Of a DNA stretch of 64,000 nt, positions 912 through 48,931 are shown piece after piece. This DNA is from Arthrobacter alpinus. GTDB lineage: Bacteria > Actinomycetota > Actinomycetes > Actinomycetales > Micrococcaceae. The notes under the pieces are model-generated. The model was not told the origin of the DNA, did no database searches, and worked only from the letters and a program-made list of their open reading frames with translations. The translations under genes were made by a program, and so were the position numbers. Location: positions 2,356,001 through 2,420,000 of the forward strand of contig NZ_FNTV01000001.1 of NCBI RefSeq assembly GCF_900105965.1. Reading direction: 5' to 3'. Every line of letters begins with the position of its first letter. Position 1 is the stretch's first letter.

Positions 912-3158
<2,247 letters not shown>

Positions 3159-5915: not shown

Positions 5916-5929
5916 TATGATCTCCCTTA
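5916..5929 (+). promoter_or_regulatory. Candidate -10 box giving a leaderless nagZ transcript
   Basis: TATGAT at 5916-5921 matches the -10 consensus at 5 of 6 positions and ends 7 nt before the ATG at 5929. Transcription would begin at or next to the A of the start codon. TTAAGT (5890-5895) and TTTATG (5895-5900) are weak -35 candidates. No Shine-Dalgarno site exists for this ATG, which fits a leaderless mRNA. Confidence 0.4.
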
Positions 5930-7458
5930 TGACATCCAGTGATCTTCACCACGCGCCATCACCGGCTGAGGCCAACTCCCCCACTGCCCAATCAGAACTT
6001 CAAACGGAGCTGCCGCGCCTGATCAACTCAGTGATCCTGCCAGGCTTCGTTGGCACAACGGCACCACAATGGTTGGTGACGGCACTCAAGAACGGGCTAG
6101 CCGGCGTGGTCTATTTCAGCCACAATATTGACCCGGATGCGCCCGGTCAGGTGGCCGCGCTCTCGGCCGAGATCCGTGCGGCCAACCCGGATGTGGTGAT
6201 CGGTGTCGACGAAGAAGGCGGCAACGTCACGCGCCTGCAGGCACGCGATGGCTCCAGCATTCCCGGCGCAGCCGCATTGGGCGCCCTCAACCAACTCACG
6301 ACGACGGAAGCGGCCGGCCGCGCTATTGGCCGCTTGTGCCGCGATGCCGGGATCAACTTGACCATCGCACCAGTTGCAGATGTCAATACGAATCCGCTCA
6401 ACCCCGTGATCGGCGTCCGCGCATTCGGCTCCGACACGGCTCTGGTGAGCGCTCACACGGCCGCCGCCATCAGCGGCATCCAGGATCTGCGCGTCGCCGC
6501 TTGCGCCAAGCACTTCCCGGGGCACGGCGATACTGTGGCGGATTCGCACATGGATGTGGCCCGCGTTGAGCTGACCATGGACCAGATGCGCCAGCACCAC
6601 CTCCCGCCGTTCAAGGCTGCCGTGGATGCCGGAGTTGCCGCCATGATGAGCGCGCACATCATCATTCCCGAGCTCGGCGAAGCTCCGGCCACGCTGAACC
6701 CGGCTGCGAGCGCGTTGCTGCGTGAGATGGGTTTCGAGGGTGTTTTGATCACCGACGCCTTGGACATGGCCGCCGTGCGTGCCACGGTTGGCCCGGGCGA
6801 GGGCGCGGTGCTGGCTCTCCTGGCGGGCAACGACTTGCTCTGCGTGGGCAATCCACTCAACGCCTACACCACGGGCCGCGACGACAAGTCCTGCTACACC
6901 GAGGTGTATGACGCCCTGTTCGCTGCTGTGGTTTCCGGCCGTCTGCCGGTGGAGTTCCTGCGACGGGCTGCGGCCCGGGTTCAGGGGTTGGCCCGGTGGT
7001 CCGCCGAGGCGCCTTCGCAGTTGGTGGACGACGCCGTCGACTGGGTTTCCGTGGCCGCCCGCGCCTGCCGCACGGACTCGCTGGGTGCACGGCCCGTACT
7101 CGCGGGCGATGGCTCCGTCACCTTGATCGACGCCCGCACGGGGCACAACATGGCAGCCGGACCCACCGAGAACTTTCTGGCAACGGCCTTGGGCAACTAC
7201 GCGGTGCGAGTACTCCCGGGCGCGGGTTTCGAAGCAGACCTCACAGCTGGGCCCGCAGGTGCGGTTCTGGTGCTGGTCGATTCGCTCGCCTCACCTGAAC
7301 AACAGGAATCGTTAGGGAGGGTCCTCGCCGCTGCCCCGCAGGCCGTGTGCGTCAACGCCGGGTTGGCCACTGGCACACCGAGCGCCACGGCAACGATTCA
7401 CGCCCACGGTTTCAGCCGGGTCATGGCACAAGCCGTGGTCAGTTTGCTAGAGGTCTAA
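5929..7458 (+). CDS. nagZ: Beta-N-acetylhexosaminidase NagZ (GH3)
   Basis: A 509-residue GH3 enzyme expected to release GlcNAc from GlcNAc-MurNAc muropeptides. The NagZ signature KHFPGHGDT is at about 194-202, followed by DSH at 205-207 (the acid/base His-Asp dyad). The nucleophile Asp276 lies in LITDALDM. There is no signal peptide, so it should be cytoplasmic, which implies import of disaccharide-containing fragments. A further ~150 residues follow the TIM barrel, as in other actinobacterial GH3 proteins. The frame is open upstream to a GTG at 5878, but that region overlaps the promoter, so 5929 is preferred. It is the first gene of the salvage island. Confidence 0.92.
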   Translation: MTSSDLHHAPSPAEANSPTAQSELQTELPRLINSVILPGFVGTTAPQWLVTALKNGLAGVVYFSHNIDPDAPGQVAALSAEIRAANPDVVIGVDEEGGNVTRLQARDGSSIPGAAALGALNQLTTTEAAGRAIGRLCRDAGINLTIAPVADVNTNPLNPVIGVRAFGSDTALVSAHTAAAISGIQDLRVAACAKHFPGHGDTVADSHMDVARVELTMDQMRQHHLPPFKAAVDAGVAAMMSAHIIIPELGEAPATLNPAASALLREMGFEGVLITDALDMAAVRATVGPGEGAVLALLAGNDLLCVGNPLNAYTTGRDDKSCYTEVYDALFAAVVSGRLPVEFLRRAAARVQGLARWSAEAPSQLVDDAVDWVSVAARACRTDSLGARPVLAGDGSVTLIDARTGHNMAAGPTENFLATALGNYAVRVLPGAGFEADLTAGPAGAVLVLVDSLASPEQQESLGRVLAAAPQAVCVNAGLATGTPSATATIHAHGFSRVMAQAVVSLLEV

Positions 7459-7496
7459 AGCTCCCCCGCCTAGTGAGCTCCGGCAGTACGGCCCGC

Positions 7497-8372
7497 TTAT
7501 CCTCGGTCTGTGCTGCCAGGGCCTCGGACTGCCTGGTGCGTGACCTCGAGTGCATTCACCGCGCCGTCGAAACATTGCTGGGCAATGCCAACGAAGAGGC
7601 AATCCACCACGGCCAGCTGAGAGATTCTGGACGCCATGGCGCCGGCACGGAACGGCGTTTCGCGGACAACCGTAAGCAGGTGCAAGGCGGCAATCCTTGC
7701 GGCCGTCGAATCTGCCACGTTGGTGATGACAAGTGTTGTGGCGCCCCGGGCCTTTGCCATGCGCAGGAAGTCCACCACCGAGGCGGTCTCGCCTCCGTGC
7801 GAGAACGCAATGGCAACATCCTCGGGCCCCATGAGGGATGCACCCATGAGCGCGTTGTCAAAGTTAGGGAATGCGTTGACTGTCAGCCCAATGCGAAAGA
7901 GCTTGTAGCGCAGGTCTTCGGCCACCACGGTTCCGGAACCCACACCGTAGAGGTTGATGCGCCGGGCTGCCGAGACAGCCGCAACGGCTTGTTCCAATAC
8001 GGCCAGATCGAGGTTGCGCGTGGTCTCCTCAATGCCCATGGTTTCGGTAAATCTGATGCGGGCAACGGTTTCTGCAAGAGTTGAACCCGGATTAAGGTCG
8101 CCACCAAACTGTGGGGCCGGGTGTTCCCCTGCGGCGGCACCTTCCCGGCCAAGCTCGGTGGCGAGAGCCAGTCTGAGACCGGCATATCCGCTAAATCCAA
8201 TGGCCTGGCAAAAGCGCACCACGGAAGGGTCGGAAGTTTTGCACAGTTGGGCCAGTTCAGAAATGGTGTGGTTGAGCACCCTCGAGGGGTCGGCAATGAT
8301 CGCCATGCCAACTCTGGCCGAGGCCGGTGGTAGCGATGGCAACTTGGATTGGATCGTGGATTGAATACTCAC
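7497..8372 (-). CDS. RpiR-family repressor, MurR-like
   Basis: A 291-residue protein with an N-terminal RpiR helix-turn-helix (ISELAQLCKTSDPSVVRFCQ) and a C-terminal SIS sugar-phosphate domain (INLYGVGSG, then AIAFSHGGET). Family members sense sugar phosphates; MurR in E. coli responds to MurNAc-6-phosphate. The GTG at 8372 is chosen because a perfect AAGGAGG lies about 8 nt upstream; an ATG further upstream adds a basic, non-conserved tail. It is divergent from murQ, with a perfect 14-bp palindrome in the spacer, so control of murQ and probably of the whole island is inferred. Confidence 0.88.
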   Translation of the reverse strand: MSIQSTIQSKLPSLPPASARVGMAIIADPSRVLNHTISELAQLCKTSDPSVVRFCQAIGFSGYAGLRLALATELGREGAAAGEHPAPQFGGDLNPGSTLAETVARIRFTETMGIEETTRNLDLAVLEQAVAAVSAARRINLYGVGSGTVVAEDLRYKLFRIGLTVNAFPNFDNALMGASLMGPEDVAIAFSHGGETASVVDFLRMAKARGATTLVITNVADSTAARIAALHLLTVVRETPFRAGAMASRISQLAVVDCLFVGIAQQCFDGAVNALEVTHQAVRGPGSTDRG

Positions 8373-8496
8373 CGGACGCCTCCTTGCGTTGTGTTTACTC
8401 GTGTGGGTTCCCGTTTGAATTCCGCCACCGATCCGCACGTTGGTCAGGGTCAGGGCGCAACGTCTGGATCTTGGCGCTCTCGACGAATATACTCAA

Positions 8497-8510
8497 AACT
8501 ACATGTAGTT
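8497..8510. promoter_or_regulatory. Perfect palindrome in the murR-murQ spacer, candidate operator
   Basis: AACTACATGTAGTT is a perfect 14-bp dyad, 75 nt upstream of the murQ start and 125 nt upstream of the repressor start. TTACGTAA, an 8-bp dyad, follows at 8517-8524. The local sequence is unusually AT-rich. These are candidate binding sites for the adjacent RpiR-type regulator. Confidence 0.45.
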
Positions 8511-8584
8511 ATTGGCTTACGTAAATACACATTTAATTGTAGGTAAATTACATCCATTGCCTGAGCGCCCTACGAAAGAACGCC

Positions 8585-9517
8585 GTGAATACTTCAGACA
8601 CTACTGCTGCACTGCGAACAGAGCTCGCTTCCCTGACCACGGAGGCATCCAACGATCGCTATCCCGATCTTGCCGCGCTCAGCACGGCGGAACTAGCGGC
8701 TGGCATGAACAGCGAGGATGCGCTGGTTCCGGAGGCAATCGCGCACCATCTGAGCACCATTGCCGCCATCATCGATGAGATTTCGCAGCGAATGCGCGAC
8801 GGCGGCCGGCTCATCTATGTTGGCGCTGGCACCCCCGGGCGCATGGGCATTCTGGACGCCAGTGAATGTCCGCCCACCTTCGGAACGGATCCCTCGCTCG
8901 TGGTCGGCGTCATTGCCGGTGGCCGAAAGGCCGTCAACCAGGCCGTGGAGAACGCCGAGGACAGCCAGGAGGCAGCAGCGGCAGATATCGCCGAACTCAG
9001 GTTGACGGCCATGGACAGCGTCATAGGCCTCGCAGCATCCGGCCGCACACCGTATGTCATTGCAGCCGTCAAGGCCGCGAGGGAACTTGGGGCATTTACC
9101 GTAGGTTTTTCCTGCAACAACGGCTCCCCGTTGGGATCGGCAGCACAGACCGCCCTTGACATTGAAGTGGGGCCGGAATTCCTCAGCGGCTCGACCCGGC
9201 TTAAATCCGGCACCTGCCAAAAACTGGTTTTAAACATGATCAGCACCATCACCATGGTTCGCCTGGGCAAGACGTACAAGAACGTCATGGTGGATCTACG
9301 TGCAACCAACGCCAAATTGCACGCGCGCAGTGAGCGGACGCTCATGGCAGCAACGGGGTGCGACGCCCAGGCGGCCAGCTCAGCCCTCGCCGCAGCCGAC
9401 GGCCACGTGAAGGCAGCAATTCTGGCCATCCTGACGGGCTTGCCGGCCACCAGTGCCGCAGCCCTGCTGGCCGAGCACGGCGGTTACCTCCAGGAGTCCA
9501 TTACGTCCGCGGGCTGA
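8585..9517 (+). CDS. murQ: N-acetylmuramic acid 6-phosphate etherase
   Basis: MurQ cleaves the lactyl ether of MurNAc-6-phosphate to give GlcNAc-6-phosphate and D-lactate. The 310-residue SIS-fold protein carries VGAGTPGRMGILDASECPPTFG across residues 79-100, with Glu94 matching the catalytic acid, and AVENAED near 120-126 with Glu125 at the expected spacing for the second catalytic Glu. The usual GTSGR is GTPGR here, a Pro in place of the Ser. The start is GTG with a weak GAAAGA site. The last 17 bp overlap the convergent serine hydrolase gene. Confidence 0.95.
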   Translation: MNTSDTTAALRTELASLTTEASNDRYPDLAALSTAELAAGMNSEDALVPEAIAHHLSTIAAIIDEISQRMRDGGRLIYVGAGTPGRMGILDASECPPTFGTDPSLVVGVIAGGRKAVNQAVENAEDSQEAAAADIAELRLTAMDSVIGLAASGRTPYVIAAVKAARELGAFTVGFSCNNGSPLGSAAQTALDIEVGPEFLSGSTRLKSGTCQKLVLNMISTITMVRLGKTYKNVMVDLRATNAKLHARSERTLMAATGCDAQAASSALAAADGHVKAAILAILTGLPATSAAALLAEHGGYLQESITSAG

Positions 9518-11045
9518 TCTCCAACAGCTGGACCCGCGGTGGATCTACAGGTGTCATTTTGACGCGGATCCGCACGTCGCCACCGCGGGCTGGCAAGTCC
9601 CATTCCACGGATGCCGCAGTCTCCCACCGCGGCGGGGTGCGTTCCTCCGCCGAATCCGCAAGTGGTCCAACCACTGCGAGCGCGGCCTCCATGGCCGCCC
9701 GTCGCTCTTCCCATGGCATGTCTTGGACAATATTGGGACTGAAGACCTCGTTGCCGAGCGTTGATCCGGGGCTGCGAACAACTTCTTCCACAGCAGCCAT
9801 CGCCTGGATAGTCTCCGGCCACGGGACGATCGGCTCCGGAACCACCAGCGCCGAAGCGGAAAGCTCTGGCACTTCCTGCCTCTGCACGGCCCGCTGTGAC
9901 GCCGCACCGACGCCCACCTTCGTCCTAGCCAGCCGTTCTTCCAGCAGCGCCCTTGCTGCTACTCCGACTTTGGAGTAGGTGGCGTTCTCGAAACCAACAA
10001 CAATGTTTCCCGTGCCCGGATGCCAGCGCATATGCGCACTGAAGCCCGGGTACCCGCCAGAATGGCCGATCACCGTTCCGTACAGCCCATGATGCTGGAC
10101 CACCAGACCGTAACCGTAGCCATTGACGGTGCCATCGGCTTCCACAGGCTCGCCCACCTGGTGCATGGACTGCATCTCCCGGCGCGTTTCCCTGCAGAGT
10201 GGCCCCTCGCTGGCAACACTTGCGCCGGGTTTGCAGTCACCTTGGAACGCCTCTTGGAGCCAGGCTGACCAACGGCCCATGTCGTCCAAGGTGCTAAAGA
10301 GCCCGCCTATTGCCGAGAAGGCGCCAGGACCTGAGGTTGGCAATTCCTCCCAGCTGTACGGTTGCTGGTACGGGAAGGGCTCAGTGTTTCCGCGCTTGCT
10401 CTTGCGGTATCCGGTGGCAATATTGGTGGCAGATGAAGCACCGGCCGCGATCCGCGCCAGCATCGTTTCCTTGCTAAACGCTGTTCCGTTGAGGTCCAAG
10501 GACTCAAGAAATTCACGCTCAATGAAATGCCTGTAGCCAACCCCGGACACCCTCTCCACGACCTCCCCCAGCATGGCGTAGCCCAAGTTGGAGTACTCAT
10601 ATGCGGAGCCGGGATGGCGAACCAAACGCACGCCCCCGGACATCAAATCCTCAAAGTCCCCGCGGGACATGCTCTCTTGACGGTCAGCCCATGGGTCATC
10701 GGTGGGCAAGCCGGAGGACATGCTCAGGAGCATTCGCAGAGTCACCACAGGGCTCGCCGGACCTTTCGCGCACCCCATGATTTTCAGGGTGGGGAGGTAT
10801 TCCCTTGCGTCGTCATCTAGACTGAGCCGCCCCCTGTCGCGCAGCAATAAGATGGCTGCCGCGGTGAATGACTTGGTGCAGGAAGCAATCCGAAAGGCCG
10901 TGGTGGTTCTCGGGACCGAGCCGCGCCCATCCACCACTCCTGCCAAACTCTGACCGACCCGAGCACCTCCGGAGAATGCCGCCAAGGCCGTGGCCGGCGC
11001 CCACCCTTCGCTCAGACGGGTCTGTGCACTCATGTGAAAATCCAT
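9501..11045 (-). CDS. Beta-lactamase-fold serine hydrolase, class C type
   Basis: A 514-residue penicillin-recognising serine hydrolase. The active-site set is present: SCTK (Ser55/Lys58), YSN at 151-153, and a late GHSGGYPGF for the third motif. About 120 further residues form a C-terminal extension. Family members include D-aminopeptidases, esterases and MurNAc-peptide amidases; position inside a muropeptide island favours a muropeptide or D-amino-acid peptide substrate. No signal peptide is visible. The ATG at 11045 is preferred because AAGGAG lies 6 nt upstream; another ATG precedes it directly. It follows the M20 peptidase gene by 44 nt on the same strand, probably as one operon. Confidence 0.8.
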   Translation of the reverse strand: MDFHMSAQTRLSEGWAPATALAAFSGGARVGQSLAGVVDGRGSVPRTTTAFRIASCTKSFTAAAILLLRDRGRLSLDDDAREYLPTLKIMGCAKGPASPVVTLRMLLSMSSGLPTDDPWADRQESMSRGDFEDLMSGGVRLVRHPGSAYEYSNLGYAMLGEVVERVSGVGYRHFIEREFLESLDLNGTAFSKETMLARIAAGASSATNIATGYRKSKRGNTEPFPYQQPYSWEELPTSGPGAFSAIGGLFSTLDDMGRWSAWLQEAFQGDCKPGASVASEGPLCRETRREMQSMHQVGEPVEADGTVNGYGYGLVVQHHGLYGTVIGHSGGYPGFSAHMRWHPGTGNIVVGFENATYSKVGVAARALLEERLARTKVGVGAASQRAVQRQEVPELSASALVVPEPIVPWPETIQAMAAVEEVVRSPGSTLGNEVFSPNIVQDMPWEERRAAMEAALAVVGPLADSAEERTPPRWETAASVEWDLPARGGDVRIRVKMTPVDPPRVQLLEISPRT

Positions 11046-11089
11046 CATCAGCTCCTTTGCGTCTGCTGGCACTGGTTGCCGGACTGTTC

Positions 11090-12403
11090 CTAGACCGCGG
11101 CTAGAAAGTCTTCGAGAATGAGCTGGCCGGAGATCAGGCTTGCTACCGGAACCCGTTCATCGATGCCATGCACGCCCGCTGCGGATCGCTCTTCGGGATC
11201 CGCACCCATGGGCGAGAACCCGTAACACGATATTCCCAGGGGCGCGAAGGCCTTCGCGTCGGTCCCGCCGCCCATGCAGTACGGAACTACGACGGCGGCG
11301 GGATCGTGACGCGTCAAGGCCGCGGCCATCTCGGCGAACCAATGCGATTGCGTCGAGGAAGAGGTTGGTGGTTGGTAAGACAAGAACTCCCGGCTGATCC
11401 CCTCGCCCAGCAAGACATCGATGGTCGCCAGAGTCTCCTCCACCGTGCCGGGCAATGCCCTGATATCGATATCGGCCTCGGCAACACCAGGGATGACGTT
11501 GACCTTGTACCCGGCCCGCAAAACAGTGGGTGTGGACGAGCACCGCACCGTCACCCCGGCAACGGTGCCGGCCGTTCCCATGGCCTCGATAGCTGCCCGG
11601 ACTCCATCCTCCCCGGTGAGGTCGGCCGCAAAGCCAAGGGCCGCCGTCGTGCGTTCAATGTAGGCGCGAACAATAGGAGTCAAGGTCAATGGCCAGCGGT
11701 AATTGCCTACCCGGTCCAGGGCCGAGATCAGTAACTTGACGGCGTTGGGTTCAACCGGCCGCGAGCCATGCCCAGAGGTTCCTGTGGCCCGCACTCGGAT
11801 GTGCAAGGTACCGCGTTCGCCCACGGCCACCGGGTAGAGGTTTACTGGCGCGCCGTCTTGTCCGGTCAGGATGGTTGCCGCGCCACCGGACTCGCCAATG
11901 GCCGCCTCGACGCCGATGAAAAGTTCGGGGTGGTCCTTGACCAGCCAGAGTGCACCGTAGTCGCCCTTGTCTTCTTCGTCAGCCACGAAAGCCACCACAA
12001 TGTCGCGCCGCGGCTTGGTGCCTGAGGCGGCCCAGTCCAAGAGCGTGGCCAGCGTCATGGCCACCATATCCTTCATGTCCGAGGCGCCGCGACCGTACAC
12101 GTATCCGTCTTTGATGGTCCCGGCGAACGGGTCAAAGCTCCACTGTTCCGGCTCCGCCGGCACCACGTCCAGGTGGGCGTGCACCAAGAGCCCGGGGAGG
12201 TTGCGGTCGGCTCCTGGCACCCTGACAACCACGGAGGACCGCTTGTCATCCGGACCGAGCAAGAGGGGCTCATAGCCTGCACCGCGCAACAATCCGTGGA
12301 TGAATCTCGCCGCCTCGGCCTCACCCCGGCTGTTGCCTTCACCGAAGTTCGTGGTGTCAAAGCGGATGAGTTGGGCACACAGAGCGGCTACGTCCTGCTT
12401 CAC
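11090..12403 (-). CDS. M20-family metallopeptidase
   Basis: A 437-residue di-zinc M20 peptidase or amidohydrolase. Visible motifs are HAHLDVVPAEP (first zinc ligand and Asp), GRGASDMKD (bridging Asp), ADEEDKGDYG (catalytic Glu-Glu), the dimerisation-domain GTSGHGSRP, and the late GGGTDAKAF. M20 enzymes cleave dipeptides, carboxyl-terminal residues or N-acyl groups. In this context a peptide released from muropeptides, such as L-Ala-L-Glu after epimerisation, is a reasonable but unproven substrate. A GTG at 12403 is chosen because GAGGAG lies 6 nt upstream; longer starts add a non-conserved tail. It is divergent from the ABC importer operon. Confidence 0.88.
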   Translation of the reverse strand: MKQDVAALCAQLIRFDTTNFGEGNSRGEAEAARFIHGLLRGAGYEPLLLGPDDKRSSVVVRVPGADRNLPGLLVHAHLDVVPAEPEQWSFDPFAGTIKDGYVYGRGASDMKDMVAMTLATLLDWAASGTKPRRDIVVAFVADEEDKGDYGALWLVKDHPELFIGVEAAIGESGGAATILTGQDGAPVNLYPVAVGERGTLHIRVRATGTSGHGSRPVEPNAVKLLISALDRVGNYRWPLTLTPIVRAYIERTTAALGFAADLTGEDGVRAAIEAMGTAGTVAGVTVRCSSTPTVLRAGYKVNVIPGVAEADIDIRALPGTVEETLATIDVLLGEGISREFLSYQPPTSSSTQSHWFAEMAAALTRHDPAAVVVPYCMGGGTDAKAFAPLGISCYGFSPMGADPEERSAAGVHGIDERVPVASLISGQLILEDFLAAV

Positions 12404-12468
12404 GGGGGTCTCCTCATGATGGTTTTTCTGTAAAAAAAGAACTTTCCCTAGTAATCGTAAGTGGTTTG

Positions 12469-12501
12469 CATTACGTTTGTGGAGTTCGTAACTCATTTAC
12501 G
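12469..12501. promoter_or_regulatory. AT-rich CATTACG/CATTTACG repeats between M20 and the ABC operon
   Basis: The 171-bp divergent spacer holds CATTACG at 12469-12475 and CATTTACG at 12494-12501, two related direct repeats about 25 bp apart. Similar GTAAAT-type words occur in the murR-murQ and epimerase-MFS spacers. This is a weak candidate for a shared operator. Confidence 0.25.
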
Positions 12502-12574
12502 CAATGTGCTTGAATGTTCCGGGCTGGGGCCCTGTTAACCCGCCCGCGAGTTTCAAAGCTGAGGGGAAAAGAAA

Positions 12575-14434: not shown

Positions 14435-14437
14435 CCC

Positions 14438-15472
14438 ATGTCCGCGTCACAATTGGTGGGGGCCGAGCCGGCCAAGGACCTTGACGAACCGGTCCGCGGA
14501 ACATCATGGCTGCGCTATGCGGGCATGAAGGCCGGTGGCGCCCTTTTCTCGATGATCATGGTGGTTCTGCTGGGCTTTTTCGCCTTCCGGATTCTGCCCG
14601 GCGATCCCGTACGTTCCCTGGCTGACGGACGCCAGGTCACGGCATCGCAGATGGATATCCTGCGGAAACAGTACGGCTTGGATCAGCCGGTCATCGTTCA
14701 GTTCTGGCGCTATCTGACGGACCTGATGCAGGGAAAGCTCGGCGATTCATACACATACAACCGGCCCGTTATGGAACTGATCCTTGACCGTTTGGGCCCC
14801 ACCCTGTTGCTGACCGGAACTGCTGCGGCGCTGTCCGTTGTGCTTGGACTCTGGCTGGGCCAACGGGCGGCGTGGCGCCGTGGCAGCATGTTTGACAAGG
14901 CACACACCGGACTTGCGCTGACTCTGTGGTCGGTGCCCACCTTTTGGTTGGGGCTGCTCCTGCTGCTCGTCTTTGGTGGCATGCTGCATTGGTTCCCCAC
15001 AGGCGGCATGGAGACTGCTGGCAGCTCTGCTACGGGATTGGCCCACATCTGGGACGTGAGCAGGCACCTGGCGTTACCCATGGTGACCATGGTGGCGGTT
15101 GTATACGCCCAGTACCTCATGGTCATGCGCGCCTCACTTCTGGAGGAAATGAGTTCCGACTACCTCGTCACGGCCCGCGCCAAGGGTTTGCGTGAGGATG
15201 ACGTACGGCGCAAACATGCCGTTCCCAATGCCCTGCTTCCCACGGTGACGCTCATTTTTCTAACCTTGGGCGGCCTCATTGGGGGCGCAGTGACGGTTGA
15301 GACGGTGTTTTCCTGGCCAGGCCTTGGCTACCTAACGTTCCAAGCGTTGTCAGCCCCTGATTTCCCTCTGTTGCAGGGAACCTTTGTAGTCTTCTCCTCG
15401 ATTGTGATCATTATGAACTTCTTCGCAGACATCTTGTACCGCGTTCTAGACCCCCGGCTGCGTACAGCATGA
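14438..15472 (+). CDS. Peptide ABC transporter permease, DppB type
   Basis: A 344-residue inner-membrane permease with six predicted helices. The first helix is followed by FRILPGDPVRSL and then a periplasmic-type loop (LRKQYGLDQPVIVQFWRYL), both typical of DppB/OppB. The cytoplasmic EAA-like loop (YLVTARAKGLREDDVRRKHA) contacts the ATPase. It starts 3 nt after the binding protein and overlaps the next permease by 4 nt (ATGA), so the genes are translationally coupled. Confidence 0.93.
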   Translation: MSASQLVGAEPAKDLDEPVRGTSWLRYAGMKAGGALFSMIMVVLLGFFAFRILPGDPVRSLADGRQVTASQMDILRKQYGLDQPVIVQFWRYLTDLMQGKLGDSYTYNRPVMELILDRLGPTLLLTGTAAALSVVLGLWLGQRAAWRRGSMFDKAHTGLALTLWSVPTFWLGLLLLLVFGGMLHWFPTGGMETAGSSATGLAHIWDVSRHLALPMVTMVAVVYAQYLMVMRASLLEEMSSDYLVTARAKGLREDDVRRKHAVPNALLPTVTLIFLTLGGLIGGAVTVETVFSWPGLGYLTFQALSAPDFPLLQGTFVVFSSIVIIMNFFADILYRVLDPRLRTA

Positions 15473-16392
15473 GCGCACCGTCAGAACAGGGAATCCAGCC
15501 CCCTGCAGCAAAGATTAACGTTGCAGCAGCCCGACGTCGCCAGCGCGCCGGAGAGGTATGGCGCGAATTTTGCGCCAACCGATCCGGGCTGATTGGCCTA
15601 ATCATTCTGGTGGTCGTTTTTGGGCTGGCCCTTCTGGCCCCCGTCCTGGCCCCGCAAGACACCCTCGATGTCACGAAAATTACGGCAGGTCAGAACGAGC
15701 CACCCTCGTGGGCAAACCCCCTGGGCACCGATCCTGCAGGCCGGTCCGTGTTGGCCATGCTGATCTGGGGAGCCAGGGTTTCATTGCTGGTGGGCTTTAG
15801 CGCAACTGCAGTTTCCATGGTGATTGGCACCGTTGTTGGCATGGCAGCTGGCCACTTCACCGGATGGACCCAGGCGTCGCTGATGCGAATCATCGACTTT
15901 TTCCTGGTTGTGCCCGGACTGGTACTGGCCATTGTGCTCTCATCCATCATTGGCCCCGGCGTTGCCACCATCATCATCGCCATCGGCATCACGTCGTGGG
16001 CAGGAACTGCCCGTGTTGTCAGGTCCCAGACCCTGACAGTTGAATCACGGGCTTACATTGAACGCAGTTGGGCCCTGGGTGCCACCAACGCCCACATCAT
16101 CAAGAAGCATGTCCTCCCGGCGGTAATGCCGCTGGTGCTGGCCAATACAACCCTGACGGTTGGTTCGGCGGTCATCGCCGAATCGACGCTGTCCTTCCTT
16201 GGCTTGGGTGATCCAAGCAGCATTTCGTGGGGCTCCATGCTCAAGATGGCACTGGACACCGGAGCCGCCACGGGCGGTTTCTGGTGGTACGTCCTCTCCC
16301 CCGGACTTGCCATCGTCGGGGTGGTGTTGTGCTTTACCTTGGTGGGCCGCGCCCTTGAATCAGTCATCAACCCAACGTTGAGAGGCCGCTAA
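15469..16392 (+). CDS. Peptide ABC transporter permease, DppC type
   Basis: A 307-residue second permease of the importer. It has the DppC/OppC N-terminal helix (LIGLIILVVVFGLALLAPVL), the segment NPLGTDPAGRSVLAMLIWGARVSL, and the EAA loop SRAYIERSWALGATNAHIIKKHVLP. It overlaps the upstream permease by 4 nt and shares one base with the ATPase start (TAATG). It pairs with the DppB-type protein to form the transmembrane channel. Confidence 0.93.
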   Translation: MSAPSEQGIQPPAAKINVAAARRRQRAGEVWREFCANRSGLIGLIILVVVFGLALLAPVLAPQDTLDVTKITAGQNEPPSWANPLGTDPAGRSVLAMLIWGARVSLLVGFSATAVSMVIGTVVGMAAGHFTGWTQASLMRIIDFFLVVPGLVLAIVLSSIIGPGVATIIIAIGITSWAGTARVVRSQTLTVESRAYIERSWALGATNAHIIKKHVLPAVMPLVLANTTLTVGSAVIAESTLSFLGLGDPSSISWGSMLKMALDTGAATGGFWWYVLSPGLAIVGVVLCFTLVGRALESVINPTLRGR

Positions 16393-18110
16393 TGCCGCGC
16401 TTGGAATTTGTGGATTTGTCAGTCATTTACCGCACCCAAACCACCGTGGGCCCCGGCGAATTACGGGCCGTTGATGGAGTGAGCCTGGTGGTGGAACCGG
16501 GCTCCACACTTGGCTTGGCCGGCGAATCCGGTTGCGGCAAATCAACGCTCGCCATGTCCGTACTACGCTTGTTGCCTGCCAACACCACCACTTCAGGGAA
16601 GATTCTGCTGGGCGAGGACAATATTCCCGATCTAGGTTGGGGCCGCCTCCGCGCGGTCCGGTGGACGGAAGCCGCCATTGTTTTTCAAGGTGCCATGCAC
16701 TCCCTGAATCCCGTACGCAAGGTGCGGGAGCAGATCGGTGAGGCACTGCTGGTGCATGCCACCGGCGAACGGGCCAAATACAAGGAAGAAAAAGTCCGCG
16801 ACGCCCGGGTCGCTGAACTCCTAAATCTCGTGGATCTTTCCCCCGCGAAGGGCGCCAGCTACCCTCATGAACTTTCCGGCGGCCAAAAGCAGCGCATCAT
16901 GATCGCCATGGCGCTGGCCTGCGAGCCTGAATTGATCATTGCGGACGAACCAACCACGGCATTGGATGTTGTGGTCCAGGCCCAGGTGCTGAACGTGCTG
17001 AGCGAGCTCGTCGCCTCTCGCGGCTTGTCCCTGATTATGATCAGCCACGACCTTTCGGTTCTCGCGTCAACCTGTGAGCGGATTGTGGTGATGCAGCGCG
17101 GAAAGATCGTCGAAGACGGACCTTCGGAACAGATCATCCGAAATCCCCAGCACCCGCACACCCAGGCCCTGGCGTCGGCCTTCCCACTAATCGGGGATGC
17201 CTCCTCACGGCTGCGCCTGCCCACCTATTCCGCTCCCCCGCGGCCGGCGCCCGGGGAGGCGCCATCCTCCGATATCAACGACGTTGTACTTCAAGCCCGG
17301 GACCTCACCGTCACCTTTGGTGGGCGAGGCGGCGGCACCACCGCGGTCGACGGTGTGAATCTCACCTGCCGTCGTGGTGAAATCACTGCCCTGGTGGGCC
17401 AGTCCGGTTCGGGCAAGACCACTCTGGCCCGCACCATGTTGGGCTTGCAGGCACCTACCTCCGGTGCCGTGCACTACAACGGAACGCCGCTCAAGCACCG
17501 CCGCAAGGACCTCAAGGCGTACCGCAAGTCCGTGCAATTTGTCCTGCAGGACCCTTCGGCCGCGCTAAATCCCAAGCACACCGTCTATGAGGCTGTTGCG
17601 GAAGGGCCACGGTTGCACAAGATGCCCGGAGATGAGCGTGAAATTGTCTCCAATGCCCTGCGCAGGGCTGAGCTCAATCCACCCGAACGGTATCTAGCCA
17701 CCATTCCACAGGAGCTTTCCGGGGGGCAGCGGCAGCGGGTGGTCATCGCCGGGGCTTTGGCCCTTGACCCGGAGTTCCTGGTTGCCGATGAACCCGTGGC
17801 CAGTCTTGACGCGTCAGTGCGAGCCGACATCTTGGCCCTCTTGTTGAAGCTACGCTGCGAATCCGGGCTCGGTGCACTGGTCATCACGCATGATCTGGGG
17901 CTGGCGTGGAATATTGCCGACCGGGTGGTAGTCATGTACCAGGGACAGATTGTCGAAGAAGGACCCGTGGAACAAGTCTTGTTGAATCCGAAGCATGAAT
18001 ACACCAAGAAGCTGCTCAGCGTTGTGCCCACGGCGGTTGTGCCTCCGGATGGTGAGACCGCCCCGCGGATGCCGGGTTTGGCGGCAGCCGACATCAGCGG
18101 GGCCAAGTGA
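16392..18110 (+). CDS. Peptide ABC transporter ATPase, DppD-DppF fusion
   Basis: A 572-residue protein with two complete nucleotide-binding domains in one chain, replacing separate DppD and DppF. Domain 1 has Walker A GESGCGKST, signature LSGGQKQR and Walker B LIIADEPTTALD. Domain 2 has GQSGSGKTT, LSGGQRQR and FLVADEPVASLD. Both have the switch His (ISHD, ITHD). It energises the importer encoded just upstream. Its stop overlaps the GTG start of the LD-carboxypeptidase gene by 4 nt, which ties cell-wall enzymes and transporter into one operon. Confidence 0.95.
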   Translation: MPRLEFVDLSVIYRTQTTVGPGELRAVDGVSLVVEPGSTLGLAGESGCGKSTLAMSVLRLLPANTTTSGKILLGEDNIPDLGWGRLRAVRWTEAAIVFQGAMHSLNPVRKVREQIGEALLVHATGERAKYKEEKVRDARVAELLNLVDLSPAKGASYPHELSGGQKQRIMIAMALACEPELIIADEPTTALDVVVQAQVLNVLSELVASRGLSLIMISHDLSVLASTCERIVVMQRGKIVEDGPSEQIIRNPQHPHTQALASAFPLIGDASSRLRLPTYSAPPRPAPGEAPSSDINDVVLQARDLTVTFGGRGGGTTAVDGVNLTCRRGEITALVGQSGSGKTTLARTMLGLQAPTSGAVHYNGTPLKHRRKDLKAYRKSVQFVLQDPSAALNPKHTVYEAVAEGPRLHKMPGDEREIVSNALRRAELNPPERYLATIPQELSGGQRQRVVIAGALALDPEFLVADEPVASLDASVRADILALLLKLRCESGLGALVITHDLGLAWNIADRVVVMYQGQIVEEGPVEQVLLNPKHEYTKKLLSVVPTAVVPPDGETAPRMPGLAAADISGAK

Positions 18111-19024
18111 GTGCGTCGCGGCTCCCCGGACCGCTGCGGCCCGGGGACCGCGTGGGGCTGGTATCCACCTCGGGCGCGCCAACGCCGGAGAATGTGGACC
18201 GGGCCGTGGATCTGCTGGAATCGTGGGATCTGGTGCCGGTCCCGGGCGAACATATTCTAGGAACACATCCCCGGGCGAAGTATCTGGCGGGTACGGATCA
18301 GCAGCGTGCCGCGGACCTGCAAACGGCCTGGTGCGACGACTCGCTGGCCGGAGTTTTTGTGGTGCGCGGGGGCTACGGTACGGTCCGGCTCCTCGATCAC
18401 CTTGACGTTGATGCCTTGCGGTTGGCCCGGCCCAAACCGCTGTATGGCTCCTCTGATGTCACCGGGATCCATGAATTTTGGGCCGATGAACTCCAGGTGC
18501 CCACGTGGTTCACGCCCATGATTGCCACAGGGTCGTTGCTCGATGACGCAAACGCCACAGAGAGCCTGCGGAGGGCCGTGTTTGAACCAACGGCCGGGCG
18601 CTCGTTTACCGCCGAAACGGCTGTCACCTTGGTGCCTGGACGCGCCAGCGGGGTGACCGTAGGCGGCAATTTGAGCCTGTTGGCCATGACCATGGGCGCC
18701 AAGGGCCGAAACAAGACCTCCAACGCCGGCAAGATCGGCCTCCTGGAAGATGTTACCGAGGACATCTACAAGCTCGATGGCTTGTTGCATACGCTGCTCC
18801 GTGCCGGCTGGTTTGACGGCATGGCCGGGCTGGCCCTGGGGTCATGGAAGGACTGCGGAGAATCCGCCGACGTACGCGCTTTATGCGAGGAGCTTCTGGT
18901 CCCCCTGGATATCCCACTGGTGTGGGAGCTGGGGTTTGGCCATGACGCCAATGCTCATAGCATCCCCTTGGGCGTCCAGTCCACGCTCTTCGCTGATGAC
19001 TCGCCCCGGCTCGTGCTGCAATGA
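18107..19024 (+). CDS. LD-carboxypeptidase, S66 family (LdcA/MccF-like)
   Basis: A 305-residue S66 peptidase. These enzymes remove the terminal D-Ala from muropeptide tetrapeptides (LdcA) or cleave related amide bonds (MccF). The nucleophile-elbow motif GSSD is at 114-117 (Ser115), the catalytic Glu is near 214 in LLEDVTED, and the His lies in GHDANAHSIPLG at 279-284. The GTG start overlaps the ATPase stop, and the end overlaps the next hydrolase by 4 nt. No signal peptide is present, so it acts in the cytoplasm on imported peptides. Context favours the LdcA role over microcin immunity. Confidence 0.9.
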   Translation: MSASRLPGPLRPGDRVGLVSTSGAPTPENVDRAVDLLESWDLVPVPGEHILGTHPRAKYLAGTDQQRAADLQTAWCDDSLAGVFVVRGGYGTVRLLDHLDVDALRLARPKPLYGSSDVTGIHEFWADELQVPTWFTPMIATGSLLDDANATESLRRAVFEPTAGRSFTAETAVTLVPGRASGVTVGGNLSLLAMTMGAKGRNKTSNAGKIGLLEDVTEDIYKLDGLLHTLLRAGWFDGMAGLALGSWKDCGESADVRALCEELLVPLDIPLVWELGFGHDANAHSIPLGVQSTLFADDSPRLVLQ

Positions 19025-20124
19025 CTGCGCCTGACCCGCGGTCTGCGGCTCTCGAGACTGAGGTGCAGCAATTATTGGGCGACGCCGTGGCCAACGGCAT
19101 CACGCCGTCGGCCGTGTGTTCGGTGGTCTTGCACGGGCAGCCGCTGCGTACCATCTCGGCCGGCCCGGCTACGGCGGGCACCTACTTCGATTTGGCCTCG
19201 GTCACCAAGGTGTTCACGGCCGTGACGGCGCTGTCCCTTGTGGATGGCGGCGCCTTGGCCCTGGACGAACCCATTTGCACTTGGCTTCCTGGTTTTCGGA
19301 GCGGTCATGGAAACAGCGGCAAATCCGCTGTCACCCTGCGCCATCTGCTCACCCACACCTCCGGGCTGCCCGCGGTGTGGCCGGGCTGGCGGTCAGCGTT
19401 GGCGACGGGCACCGCCTATAACCGCCAAGACCTGCTTGCCGACCTGTTGAGCATGGAACTAACAGCGGTCCCCGGTACGCACTTTGACTATTCCTGCGTT
19501 GGCTTCAACACTGTCATGGCGCTGGCCGAACACGTCACCGGCCGGCCGTGGGCCGGGCTGGTAAGCGAACGGGTGCTGGAGAAACTCAGCAACGGCGGCT
19601 GTCCCTCAGGCCTGGTGGAGCTGACAGGGCGCCCAGATCCGGCACTCTGCGCCCCCACGGAATTTCAGCCGGAATACGGCCGCGGATTGATTCAGGGCAT
19701 TGTCCACGACGAATCCGCGTGGTCACTGGGCGGACTCAGCGGCAATGCCGGACTGTTTGGCACTGCACCGTCCTTGGCCGCCTTCGGCGAGGATCTTTTG
19801 GCGGGCTTGCCGGGAATCTTGAGCCCAACAATGGCCGCTGAAATGTGGCAGGACCAGCTGCCTCTTGTCCTGGGCGACAATGCAGATAGCGGCGGCCCCG
19901 GCTACGGCCATGGCCTGGGTCTGCGGATCGGCCAAGAATCTTGGATGGGTGCTCACCCAGGCGCCCGTGGACACAACGGGTTTACCGGCACCTCGCTACT
20001 GGTGGACCGTGAAGCTGGCATTGCCGCAGCCCTGTTGACCAACCGAGTCCATCCCAGCCGCACACTCTCGGACGTCACAGCCATGCGCCACGCCGTTGCC
20101 GATGTTGTGTACGCCGCGGCCTAA
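19021..20124 (+). CDS. Serine hydrolase, class C beta-lactamase fold, AmiE/YbbE-like
   Basis: A 367-residue penicillin-recognising hydrolase with SVTK (Ser60/Lys63), YSC at 157-159 in place of the usual YSN, and the third motif in GHNGFTGTSLLVD. The GFTGTS segment followed by LLTNRVHPS resembles B. subtilis YbbE (AmiE), the N-acetylmuramoyl-L-alanine amidase encoded beside nagZ and murQ there. That resemblance is from memory of the family, not an alignment. It has no signal peptide and is translationally coupled to the LD-carboxypeptidase. The proposed role is to strip the peptide from MurNAc-peptides. Confidence 0.82.
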   Translation: MTAPDPRSAALETEVQQLLGDAVANGITPSAVCSVVLHGQPLRTISAGPATAGTYFDLASVTKVFTAVTALSLVDGGALALDEPICTWLPGFRSGHGNSGKSAVTLRHLLTHTSGLPAVWPGWRSALATGTAYNRQDLLADLLSMELTAVPGTHFDYSCVGFNTVMALAEHVTGRPWAGLVSERVLEKLSNGGCPSGLVELTGRPDPALCAPTEFQPEYGRGLIQGIVHDESAWSLGGLSGNAGLFGTAPSLAAFGEDLLAGLPGILSPTMAAEMWQDQLPLVLGDNADSGGPGYGHGLGLRIGQESWMGAHPGARGHNGFTGTSLLVDREAGIAAALLTNRVHPSRTLSDVTAMRHAVADVVYAAA

Positions 20125-20165
20125 GTACCGATTTTCCAGCTCCTCTCACTGCCAGGAAGGCCCCC

Positions 20166-21005
20166 ATGTCTCTTACCTCCGATTACAGCGACGGCGTCCC
20201 CACAGTTTCCTTCCACCTGACGGATATGTCCGGGGTTGTCCTTGCTGAACGCAACGCCGATGTGACGTTCTATTCAGCCAGCACCATTAAGCTCGGAGTT
20301 CTGGTCGCGGCCATGCAAGCCGTGGAGCGCGGAGAGCTGTCCCTGGACCAGCCCGTGATTTCCACGCACACGTTCCCCAGCGGTGTCGGGACTGGCACGC
20401 CGTTTAGTTTTGCCCCCGACGATTACGACGAGGGTCTCCCTCCGGAGGGGAGCCCAACCACGCTGCACACAGTTCTGGAACGCATGATCATTGTTTCCTC
20501 CAACGAGGCAACCAACCTGGCCATCGAGCTGGTGGGCTTCGCTGCGATCAACGCATCTTTGGCTGCCTGTGGTGCCACCAACTCGTTCATGGACCGGTTG
20601 TACGGCGACATGGATGCCCTTGCCGCGGGGCTGACGCACCAGGTCACAGCACGTGACCTGGTCAAGATCATGCACACAGTCCTGAGTGGACGCGCGGCTG
20701 GGCCGGAATTGACGGCCGTCATGATGGGCTGGCTGCGGGCCCAGGAATATCCGGTGATCGGTCTCGAGGCCCAGGCCTTGGTGCCGGAGTGCGATTGGGG
20801 AAGCAAGTCAGGCTGGGTCACCGGGATTCGTCACGATGTGGCGTTTGTTGCTCCGGCCAGCGACGCTCCCGCAGCGGGGGTGGCCCCGTCCGAGGGCTAC
20901 ATCTTGGCAGTGTGCACGCGTGGCTACGCGGAAGACGACGCAACTGAGGTGGTCCGTTCGCTTGCCGCCATGGCCCACACAATCGTTACTGCCCAATTGA
21001 ACTAG
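20166..21005 (+). CDS. Serine hydrolase, class A beta-lactamase fold, no signal peptide
   Basis: A 279-residue protein with the class A active-site order: STIK (Ser39/Lys42), SNE at 112-114 replacing SDN, and KSG at 214-216. The region between the second and third motifs lacks the classic class A ExxLN omega-loop motif, so a true beta-lactamase is unlikely. It starts MSLTSDYSDG with no signal peptide. Relatives include cytoplasmic or secreted D,D-peptidase-like hydrolases. It ends the ABC operon, 41 nt after the AmiE-like gene, and overlaps the convergent epimerase gene by 20 bp. A peptide substrate derived from the cell wall is inferred. Confidence 0.75.
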   Translation: MSLTSDYSDGVPTVSFHLTDMSGVVLAERNADVTFYSASTIKLGVLVAAMQAVERGELSLDQPVISTHTFPSGVGTGTPFSFAPDDYDEGLPPEGSPTTLHTVLERMIIVSSNEATNLAIELVGFAAINASLAACGATNSFMDRLYGDMDALAAGLTHQVTARDLVKIMHTVLSGRAAGPELTAVMMGWLRAQEYPVIGLEAQALVPECDWGSKSGWVTGIRHDVAFVAPASDAPAAGVAPSEGYILAVCTRGYAEDDATEVVRSLAAMAHTIVTAQLN

Positions 21006-22092
21006 CTGTCCCGCTGCTCCGGGGCCAGGAAAGTCCTGTGATCCCCAGCCCTGGGGCCGGAGAGAGCCAAATTTCGGATCTCCGGTATTGCGCACCACCG
21101 GAGACCGGCGACGCCGCCAGCCACAGTCCGCCGTCCAGGTCCTGAGCCATGACGGGCAGCGTCGAGGCAAAAGCCGCCGCCGCGGCGATGCCCACGCTGC
21201 TCTCCAGCATGCAACCCACCACAACTCCCAGACCGGCATCTGCTGCTCGGTCAGCCAGCCTTCTGGCATGCCGAATCCCGCCGGTTTTTGCCAGCTTGAT
21301 ATTGATCATCGAGGCCGCGTTGCGCTCCAGCAAGAGGTCCAGATCCGCACAGGTCCAGACGCTTTCATCCGCCATGATGGGAAGGCCGACGGCGCCGCTC
21401 ACCTTGGCCAGACCGGCCCAGTCAGCGGCGGCGACGGGTTGCTCAACAAACTCAACGCCAACGTTGGCCTTTTCCAGTCCGCGGATAAACGTGATGGCCT
21501 GCTCGGGCGTAAAAGCCTGGTTGGCATCGACCCTCAGGATGGTCTCCTTGCCCACGGCAGCACGCACGGCCACCATGGCCGCCAAGGGATCACCTTCGGC
21601 ATTGAGTTTGACCTTCAAGCAGTCAAATCCTTCGCTGACGTGGTGGCGAGCCGTCGCCGCGAGTTCCTCAGGGGCGGCAACGGAAAGCGTCATATCAGTT
21701 GTGACATGAATGGGTGTACCTGCCGGTTGTCCGCCAAGGAACTCAGACATGGAAATCCCGGCTTGTTGGGCGGCCAGGTCATGGAGGGCACAATCAACGG
21801 CCGCTCGAGCAACACTCGGCTCGCGAGATTGTTCGAGCCGTTCCAAGGCGTGTTCCACGCTGTCGGCCGAGGCGAACAGGGACCACAGCGGCCCTTCAAC
21901 GGAGGCAATCACGGCGTTGGTGGTTGTTTTGGTAACAACACTGATGGGTGCCTCACCCCAACCGCTCAGTCCGGCGTCATCCCGTAGTTCAACAATCACC
22001 GTTTCCAGTTCCACTGCGCTGCGCACCGCAGTGGTAAAGGCTCGGAGCAACGGCACGCTTATGCGGTGGGCGGTGATGGACGCAAGTTTCAT
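20986..22092 (-). CDS. Dipeptide epimerase (L-Ala-D/L-Glu type), enolase superfamily
   Basis: A 368-residue enolase-superfamily enzyme of the muconate-lactonising subgroup. It has the KxK base motif in CLKVKLN, metal ligands in RVDANQ, EFVEQP and MADES, and the second catalytic Lys in INIKLAKTGG. Family members epimerise L-Ala-D-Glu from murein to L-Ala-L-Glu so that ordinary peptidases can use it. The ATG at 22092 is preferred to the GTG at 22101 because AAAGGTGG is correctly spaced. It is the only member of this half of the island on the minus strand. Other dipeptide specificities exist in the family. Confidence 0.88.
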   Translation of the reverse strand: MKLASITAHRISVPLLRAFTTAVRSAVELETVIVELRDDAGLSGWGEAPISVVTKTTTNAVIASVEGPLWSLFASADSVEHALERLEQSREPSVARAAVDCALHDLAAQQAGISMSEFLGGQPAGTPIHVTTDMTLSVAAPEELAATARHHVSEGFDCLKVKLNAEGDPLAAMVAVRAAVGKETILRVDANQAFTPEQAITFIRGLEKANVGVEFVEQPVAAADWAGLAKVSGAVGLPIMADESVWTCADLDLLLERNAASMINIKLAKTGGIRHARRLADRAADAGLGVVVGCMLESSVGIAAAAAFASTLPVMAQDLDGGLWLAASPVSGGAQYRRSEIWLSPAPGLGITGLSWPRSSGTASSIGQ

Positions 22093-22103
22093 GGAAACCA
22101 CCT

Positions 22104-22145
22104 TTTAGTAAGTTAAATACCAAATTGAACCTAGTTTAGTAAATG
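22104..22145. promoter_or_regulatory. Direct repeat TTTAGTAA in the epimerase-MFS spacer
   Basis: TTTAGTAA occurs at 22104-22111 and again at 22135-22142, 31 bp apart (about three helical turns), in an AT-rich block just upstream of the epimerase start. It is a candidate operator or promoter element for the divergent pair. Confidence 0.3.
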
Positions 22146-22228
22146 ATCTTCGTCACGGGGTGCGGCGCGGGTCACTTTGCCGGATAATCTTGAGGCAGGT
22201 GCAAGACCGGACGTGAGCAAAGGAAACC

Positions 22229-48600: not shown

Positions 48601-48931
48601 CCTGTTCTGCAACCACCCGCCGTTCCAGATGGACGGCAACTTCGGCATCACAGGTGCCGTGGCGGAGATGCTGATCCAGAGCCACACCGGCACCATCCAC
48701 CTACTCCCTGCACTGCCCGCGTCTTGGGCTGACGGAGCCTTCACCGGACTCCGGGCACGCGGAGGCTACCAAATCGATTGCACCTGGAAGTCCGGAAAGG
48801 TCACCGAGGTTGTTGTCATTGGCGACAAGTCACCGAACCAGGGCAACATCACCATCCGAATGAACGGGAAGGATTACAAGGTCAAGCCCACGAAGCCGGG
48901 CCACAAGACCAAGCCGTTCTCGCCTAGCTAG
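45699..48931 (+). pseudogene. GH95 alpha-L-fucosidase family gene, frameshifted by a 26-bp tandem duplication
   Basis: The first frame runs from an ATG at 45699 (CAGGAG site, 7-nt spacing) and stops at 48038 in nonsense sequence. Coding continues in another frame from about 47811 to 48931. The switch falls exactly at a 26-bp tandem duplication; removing one copy gives one frame of 1068 residues. A Tat-like signal (TRRQALKLGG) opens the protein. The GH95 N-domain (LPIGNGRLGAMLFG, NEQSLWGG) is interrupted by two discoidin-like (F5/8 type C) modules. The catalytic part lies after the break: WSPEHGPRENG and MDGNFGITGAVAEM. As it stands the product lacks its active site. Substrates would be fucosylated or galactosylated plant or host glycans. 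Confidence 0.88.
47754..47805 (+). repeat. Exact 26-bp tandem duplication inside GH95
   Basis: Copies at 47754-47779 and 47780-47805 are identical, and 5 bases of a third copy (ACCAC) follow. The unit encodes TTNLAESHE in the correct frame. Because 26 is not a multiple of 3 it shifts the frame. Such direct repeats can be lost by slippage, so the change may be reversible. Confidence 0.93.

Follow-up and report, generated by a model that had tools for sequence, protein, structure and literature searches.

A putative MurR regulon joining sugar and peptide genes for cell-wall fragment salvage in Arthrobacter alpinus

Introduction

Excerpts of published work describe several arrangements of genes for the salvage of cell-wall fragments. 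In Bacillus subtilis, genes are clustered as murQ-murR-murP-amiE-nagZ(-ybbC), and NagZ and AmiE are described as extracellular (PMC5061867); the dpp-ykfABCD genes form another locus (PMC2954226). Escherichia coli carries a murR/murQ-murP-yfeW divergon (PMC5061867; a slash marks here the region between two genes). Among actinobacteria, Streptomyces coelicolor has MurQ without MurP (SCO4308-SCO4307; PMC5061867), and Mycobacterium smegmatis has MurQ, the mycobacterial transporter of N-acetylmuramic acid (MurNAc) being termed unknown (PMC13041923), as well as an apparently complete classical system (PMC6572805). Here we describe an island of Arthrobacter alpinus in which genes predicted to act on the sugar and on the peptide parts of the wall lie side by side and share putative MurR operators. 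The window analyzed spans 64,000 nucleotides (G000:C1:2356001-2420000; G labels denote genomes, L labels locus slices, and G000 is the 4.62 Mb A. alpinus genome).

As in the B. subtilis mur cluster, nagZ, murR, murQ and an S12-family hydrolase gene are found together; unlike that cluster, the island has no MurP, its NagZ and S12 proteins look cytoplasmic, and a peptide importer with further enzymes is attached (PMC5061867). The peptide ATP-binding cassette (ABC) importer, the LD-carboxypeptidase and the YkfB-type epimerase recall dpp-ykfABCD, but no NlpC/P60 YkfC is found among the island genes, which are joined to murR-murQ and add an M20 peptidase, two S12 proteins and a class-A-like hydrolase (PMC2954226). 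The original prediction, an earlier note on this stretch, held that known Gram-positive clusters contain only part of the set; this is fair, although B. subtilis has both halves, in two loci (PMC5061867, PMC2954226). The E. coli divergon shares with the island the divergent murR/murQ arrangement and a PBP4B-like hydrolase (PBP4B is the top NCBIfam model of S12b, 77.5 bits against a cut-off of 385), but in the island MurP is missing, and MurR-type sites are found also before peptide genes (PMC5061867). MurQ without MurP is a trait in common with S. coelicolor and M. smegmatis; for neither species do the available excerpts mention a comparable peptide cassette or a shared operator (PMC5061867, PMC13041923). 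Titles and abstract openings of the open-licence literature contained, among the matches listed, no described MurR operator or cluster like this. The parts are already known; the new element is their union in one ordered island with shared operators.

Results

Putative tandem MurR operators at sugar and peptide genes

All the salvage genes lie at 5929-22101 of the window, in the order purH(-), nagZ(+), murR(-), murQ(+), S12a(-), M20(-), dppA-B-C-DF-ldcA-S12b-bla2(+), epimerase(-), MFS(+), the latter encoding a major facilitator superfamily transporter (Table 1). A palindrome common to murR/murQ and M20/dppA was first noticed on reading the intergenic regions. Close to GTAAATnATTTAC, it is repeated as tandem pairs, 31 bp apart, at murR/murQ, M20/dppA and epimerase/MFS. 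The M20/dppA sites of the window and of L058 sit within the longest M20 open reading frame (ORF). The window ORF opens at 12496, but GTG 12403, preceded by GAGGAGA, agrees with the start in relatives; since this is the likely start, the site is viewed as upstream of M20.

A symmetrised matrix was built from six murR/murQ sites chosen by eye (L030, L040, L042, L045, L052, L056). Its training set included no site from the window and none from a dppA promoter, and 741,627 positions were scanned across 37 loci. Although the matrix was trained on murR/murQ alone, most top held-out hits are M20/dppA regions from several genera. At 12.9 bits or more, these are the regions of L056, L052, the window, L050, L026, L058, L057 and L053; the same range includes the window murR/murQ and epimerase/MFS sites, a single site downstream of the second L056 murR, and four within dppA genes. 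When spacings of 14 to 60 were compared for pairs with both boxes above 5 bits, 31 bp gave 12 pairs and each of the 46 others 0-1. The 12 pairs all fall within the salvage gene set: eight at M20/dppA, the others at epimerase/MFS in the window, murQ/nagZ in L055, epimerase/murR in L058 and murR/murQ in L052, this last including a training site.

Significance was assessed by 1000 shuffles of each intergenic region. In each of nine M20/dppA regions linked to murR the observed pair was reached by no shuffle; in the window, epimerase/MFS was reached by none and murR/murQ by 3 of 1000. Four M20/dppA regions come from loci without murR: three are low-scoring (24, 28 and 391 of 1000 shuffles), L053 being the exception (0/1000). 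Upstream of murQ, all 17 same-genus loci lacking murR score 1.9 or less, against 14.3 in the window; the count omits L026, which is interrupted by a contig end. A held-out box of 20.9 bits is found at the contig end carrying murR in G012, the other member of the genus with the peptide genes.

A degenerate pair pattern, allowing at most one mismatch, was then searched in 17 genomes, with the reversed pattern as control. As the pattern was composed after viewing three places in G000, only absence elsewhere is independent. In the G000 genome its matches are confined to the island, at three distinct places; the reversed control gives one match per strand. All 11 exact matches in the 17 genomes fall in the salvage gene set. 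With one mismatch allowed there are 30 distinct places, 17 of them in the gene set and two (G214, G247) before genes for a family-1 binding protein and a permease. No site was found at purH/nagZ or ferritin/purH, and icd/ferritin has one single box and no pair; none of the 16 loci examined outside the family has a pair. The 31 bp correspond to about three helical turns, a spacing that would put two dimers on one face of the DNA; an excerpt on E. coli MurR reports a tetramer (PMC12713135).

Two further occurrences of the motif are recorded. In G214 and G247 (L063:5244-9925, L064:5239-9926) the MurR-like 31-bp pair before the family-1 binding protein and permease genes, upstream of nagZ, is the best of each 19.9-kb slice, and the two genes may encode a muro-sugar importer. 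A lone operator-like box at window position 3117, inside icd, recurs there in relatives and probably reflects coding constraint, since it has no 31-bp partner.

Distribution of the cassette

The genus sample comprises 23 genomes, the family sample 295 genomes from 32 genera, and the order sample 396 genomes. In the genus, murQ is universal (23/23), LdcA is found in two genomes, and the peptide block is restricted to the window and G012. The other 21 loci feature nagZ-(murR)-murQ, followed in 20 by S12b (split in L027, absent in L046); MFS is found in 20 of the 21 (in pieces in L030 and L044, absent from the L047 slice). Within the genus the island epimerase is peculiar to the window, G012 holding a 36% relative elsewhere.

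In the family, LdcA was identified in 14/295 genomes (6/32 genera) and MurQ in 67/295, among them 12 of the 14 LdcA bearers. The ordered cassette M20/dppABCDF-ldcA is found in 13 of these 14; L061 starts at a contig end. The 14 loci carry bla2 (13), S12b (12), the epimerase (11) and S12a (9); nine slices include murR, counting G012, where it sits on a contig end that presumably abuts, and five include murQ. As order and orientation recur in other genera, the block is not a chance assembly.

In the order sample, 40/396 genomes have LdcA, 36 of them outside the family; from these 36 come the 16 loci examined. Importer genes lie near ldcA in 15 of the 16 (weak in L078, none in L083), and murR, murQ, nagZ, S12a, S12b and bla2 were not seen in any. 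M20 and a 32% relative of the epimerase are found in L068 only.

Genes and enzymes of the island

Genes were called by Pfam matches and NCBIfam models with curated cut-offs. Every salvage gene has its Pfam family match, so the inventory of the original prediction (nagZ, murQ, a MurR-like regulator, S12 hydrolases, M20 peptidase, importer, LD-carboxypeptidase, epimerase) is confirmed. The overlapping starts it pointed out, linking transporter, carboxypeptidase and hydrolase, are equally real: overlaps measure 4 nt between dppB and dppC, 1 nt between dppC and dppDF, and 4 nt both between dppDF and ldcA and between ldcA and S12b. M20 and S12a, separated by 17 bp, are probably co-transcribed. The nagZ ORF opens at GTG 5878, but ATG 5929 agrees with relatives such as L042.

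Table 1. Features of the island and its flank (window coordinates)
Feature	Position	Strand	Basis and remarks
nagZ, GH3 beta-N-acetylglucosaminidase	5929..7458	+	PF00933, E=1.4e-61; no strong hydrophobic N-terminus
murR, RpiR/SIS regulator	7497..8438	-	RpiR helix-turn-helix and SIS domains; adjoins murQ
putative MurR tandem operator, murR/murQ	8508..8551		second box 8539-8551 strong, first weak
murQ, MurNAc-6-phosphate etherase	8585..9517	+	NF003915, 388 bits (cut-off 168); TIGR00274, 347 (cut-off 302)
S12a, S12-family serine hydrolase	9501..11072	-	PF00144, E=1.3e-51
M20 metallopeptidase	11090..12403	-	NF005913, 523 bits (cut-off 382)
putative MurR tandem operator, M20/dppA	12457..12500		boxes 12457-12469 and 12488-12500
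dppA, solute-binding protein (SBP) family 5	12575..14434	+	SBP_bac_5, E=4.2e-88; hydrophobic N-terminus, C-terminal membrane anchor
dppB permease	14438..15472	+	family match
dppC permease	15469..16392	+	family match
dppDF, fused double ATPase	16392..18110	+	family match
ldcA, S66 LD-carboxypeptidase	18107..19024	+	S66 N and C domains
S12b, second S12 hydrolase	19021..20124	+	S12 family match, E=2.9e-54
bla2, class-A-beta-lactamase-like hydrolase	20166..21005	+	Beta-lactamase2; no strong hydrophobic N-terminus
L-Ala-D/L-Glu-type dipeptide epimerase	20986..22101	-	MR_MLE
putative MurR tandem operator, epimerase/MFS	22108..22151		boxes 22108-22120 and 22139-22151
MFS transporter	22229..23581	+	conserved neighbour of nagZ-murQ-S12b in relatives

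NCBIfam scores exceed the cut-offs for murQ, M20 and the ATPase, and stay below them for nagZ (171 bits against 207), murR (105.7 against 408, for the curated E. coli MurR model), ldcA (95 against 378) and the epimerase (154.9 against 500 and 150.6 against 343 for two equivalog models). Several gene names are therefore based on Pfam and context. Among solved structures the epimerase is most similar to 1jpm, the L-Ala-D/L-Glu epimerase of B. subtilis (E=6.9e-65). The alignment of the two retains the KxK, DAN, EQP, ADES, KLAK and DxD positions, with the catalytic lysine pair, the Asp/Glu/Asp metal ligands and the DxD substrate motif. The catalytic lysines are invariant among cassette orthologues. 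Two observations speak against a YkfB-type identity: the second Asp of DxD varies among 11 orthologues, and the best NCBIfam model is DgcA, an N-acetyl-D-Glu racemase (197.8 against a cut-off of 400). LdcA is most similar, among solved S66 proteins, to 1zl0 (2.9e-23).

The B. subtilis AmiE belongs to family S12. The original prediction had spoken of an AmiE/YbbE-like hydrolase; membership in S12 stands, while the AmiE-specific label goes beyond the match, and AmiE-type activity of the two S12 proteins is suggested only as far as the family goes. In S12a and S12b the SxxK, YSN/YSC and HSGG/HNG motifs are invariant (9-13 cassette orthologues per gene; SxxK, YSN and HSGG in the nine of S12a), as are SxxK, SSN and KSG in 13 orthologues of bla2. 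The bla2 product scores 44.6 bits against a cut-off of 200 as a class A beta-lactamase, and its N-terminal hydrophobicity is low. Class A enzymes feature SDN and Glu166 motifs; viewed by eye, bla2 has SSN in place of SDN and no apparent Glu166 motif.

N-termini were compared by a simple hydrophobicity scan of the first 60 residues, which is not a signal-peptide predictor. DppA has the highest value of the non-membrane proteins of the island (2.01, all others 1.56 or less). As only DppA stands out, NagZ, LdcA, the epimerase, both S12 proteins and the class-A-like protein all appear to be located in the cytoplasm.

Beyond the MFS gene, positions 23673-25214 encode a protein of 513 aa, conserved in several relatives, whose N-terminus is a weak WXG100 match and which also has DUF2515. 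Further downstream (45567-48931), two overlapping frames of 823 and 364 aa together encode a GH95 glycosidase with F5/8 domains, a split that resembles a frameshift.

Missing steps and a candidate kinase

The original prediction had called the island near-complete. This is too strong a term: AnmK has no match in the G000 genome, none of the three phosphotransferase system (PTS) EIIC matches in the genome scores high enough for MurP (the best reaches 121 bits, the cut-off being 516), and no NlpC/P60 gamma-D-Glu endopeptidase (YkfC) is found among the island genes, the rest of the genome not having been searched for one. MurP and AnmK were thus rejected as sources of MurNAc-6-phosphate in G000. 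For NagA, the enzyme that processes GlcNAc-6-phosphate further, a single match in the genome covers nearly the whole length and scores 209.5 bits (cut-off 225.65). In some relatives a gene is inserted between nagZ and murR or murQ; that it encodes a kinase was likewise rejected, as the four inserts scanned (L040, L042, L044, L045) have no kinase domain; the L043 insert was outside the scan.

Two BadF proteins of G000 exceed the Pfam cut-off, both encoded outside the island, and two further matches remain below it. The top solved match of one (L009:9556-10482; G000:C1:4150555-4151478) is the MurNAc/N-acetylglucosamine (GlcNAc) kinase 8zo3 (4.6e-26); the other is closer to a hexokinase. The 8zo3-like protein is found in 23/23 genomes of the genus, the match containing one TAG in three of them. 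In G280, which belongs to the family, murR beside the cassette is overlapped by a gene for a BadF kinase (L055:424-1455), for which 8zo3 is once more the top solved match (2.9e-17). A further BadF gene, in G214, is divergent to murQ-AnmK (L066). Because of these neighbourhoods, the unlinked BadF protein is proposed as a candidate MurNAc kinase (MurK-type) that could supply the missing step.

A second, paralogous cluster, MFS-AnmK-MurR-MurQ2, resides in G009, G012 and G205 (L048:5976-10293, L049:5989-10360, L065:9923-14244); it may be a unit for anhydro-MurNAc salvage, with the MFS protein as candidate importer. HAD-family hydrolases follow bla2 in two relatives (L055:12507-13454, L059:12348-13181); the MurNAc-6-phosphate phosphatase MupP belongs to the HAD superfamily.

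History of the block

In the MurR tree the window protein clusters with cassette-linked MurRs of other genera and is separate from those encoded in AnmK clusters. In a tree of flank genes the window and G012 do not pair as sisters, and the presence of murR requires four changes or more. Relative to the nearest genus members, the window is closer to G012 in murR (77% against 62-66%), murQ (82%, the others at most 80%) and S12b (67%, the others at most 62%); in purH, nagZ and MFS it is less like G012 than like the nearest other members. The MurR proteins of window and G012 group with strong support, their S12b proteins without it. A simple horizontal gain of the block was rejected, as the gene-by-gene similarity to G012 is mixed; exchange between lineages, or ancient presence followed by repeated loss, may account for the pattern.

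Discussion

The genomes compared directly show the gene families, the ordered cassette, and operator pairs that are shared and associated with murR. These features are best viewed as a MurR-controlled regulon for cell-wall fragment salvage that joins sugar and peptide modules, a reading to which we assign a probability of about 0.72. The scheme that follows includes substrates, order of steps, enzyme location, effector and kinase role as we infer them. The importer would take wall fragments into the cell, where cytoplasmic NagZ would cleave off GlcNAc and the S12 hydrolases would free the peptide. LdcA would remove the terminal D-Ala, and the epimerase and the M20 peptidase would complete processing of the Ala-Glu peptide. 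MurNAc-6-phosphate, presumably formed by the unlinked BadF (MurK-type) kinase, would be converted by MurQ into GlcNAc-6-phosphate and D-lactate, and would free MurR from the tandem operators before the epimerase gene, murQ and the two divergent operons, M20 and dpp-ldcA. Salvage of both halves of the wall, as originally predicted, is well supported by the gene content and the shared putative operators; co-regulation, whose lack the prediction had named as a point against itself, is indicated by the same operators at the level of sequence.

Several observations weigh against such a regulon. The peptide block is missing in 21 of the 23 genus members, and nagZ has here no operator in front, which also limits the completeness originally claimed. 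The MurR of G280 is not part of the main MurR clade but sits among AnmK-cluster proteins on a long branch; the second murR-murQ loci of G009 and G012 (L048, L049), whose MurRs belong to another clade, have no site in the 300 bp before murQ. L053 carries a weak pair with no murR in its slice, and in the four g32 genomes with a cassette the pair pattern has no match within the gene set. In the 17-genome search 11 of the 30 one-mismatch places lie outside any described gene set, and the reversed control yields 22 strand matches where the pattern itself yields 40. Of the six loci of the genus that combine murR with a site, four went into the matrix, and have their site by construction. In the test for joint change of murR and operator, whose states were entered by hand, all three independent pairs agree, a number that cannot reach significance. 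The boxes before dppA overlap plausible -35 and -10 elements, so that conservation could partly be promoter conservation. As for the importer, the SBP has NikA as top NCBIfam model, under the cut-off, and the ATPase exceeds the NikD, NikE and dipeptide-ATPase cut-offs alike; its substrate is therefore not fixed by sequence.

Alternatively, the 31-bp pair may be no MurR operator, but a promoter that has been conserved, or a site bound by another regulator. The coincidence with promoter elements at dppA and the pair in L053 would fit; but the same pair, detected by a matrix derived from murR/murQ only, is found at murR/murQ and epimerase/MFS, and it is absent where murR is absent, in 17/17 murQ loci of the genus and, at comparable score, in three of four murR-less cassettes. 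We regard this explanation as unlikely. Still lower odds are given to a cassette serving mainly another purpose, such as use of D-amino-acid peptides, handling of peptide antibiotics or import of metal chelates. Family S66 includes the microcin-immunity protein MccF, structures of which are among the weaker LdcA matches, three penicillin-fold hydrolases that could detoxify are found together, and the ATPase scores as NikD/NikE. However, the murein tetrapeptide carboxypeptidase 5z01 outranks the MccF entries as a match of LdcA, the class-A-like protein has neither a strong hydrophobic N-terminus nor, by eye, a Glu166 motif, and the linked epimerase and MurR-type sites indicate wall catabolism.

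The salvage regulon itself can be read in two ways, differing solely in the cargo of the importer. Two pathways may share locus and regulator, stem peptides entering through the ABC importer and MurNAc or the disaccharide through another carrier, perhaps the MFS protein, with the S12 amidases acting on whatever arrives; we put this a little short of even chances. Dpp and LdcA genes occur outside the family without sugar genes, the MFS gene closely follows S12b in most compact relatives and is kept in 20 of the 21 loci of the genus that have no island, the second paralogous cluster joins MFS to AnmK, MurR and MurQ, and in G214 and G247 the operator-like pair fronts sugar-type ABC genes upstream of nagZ; all these favour a cargo of stem peptides only. 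The MFS protein is a candidate importer of MurNAc or another product, although its top NCBIfam model, under the cut-off, is an aromatic-acid symporter. The seemingly cytoplasmic NagZ and S12 proteins, together with the MurR sites on the importer, favour instead sugar-bearing muropeptides. The corresponding proposal, in which the Dpp-type importer carries intact sugar-bearing muropeptides, a BadF MurK-type kinase acts on the released MurNAc, and a single MurR regulon is governed by tetramers sitting on 31-bp tandem operators at sugar and peptide promoters, is doubtful as a whole and is put forward tentatively. If true, import of whole muropeptides would be the missing entry route of actinobacteria having MurQ but not MurP.

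How MurNAc enters the cell and is phosphorylated in such actinobacteria appears open in the excerpts of the literature available (PMC5061867, PMC13041923). For these steps the locus suggests one particular importer and one particular kinase, along with a small predicted regulon. A MurR protein sensing a wall sugar, yet governing uptake and breakdown of peptides, would be a new wiring of cell-wall recycling.

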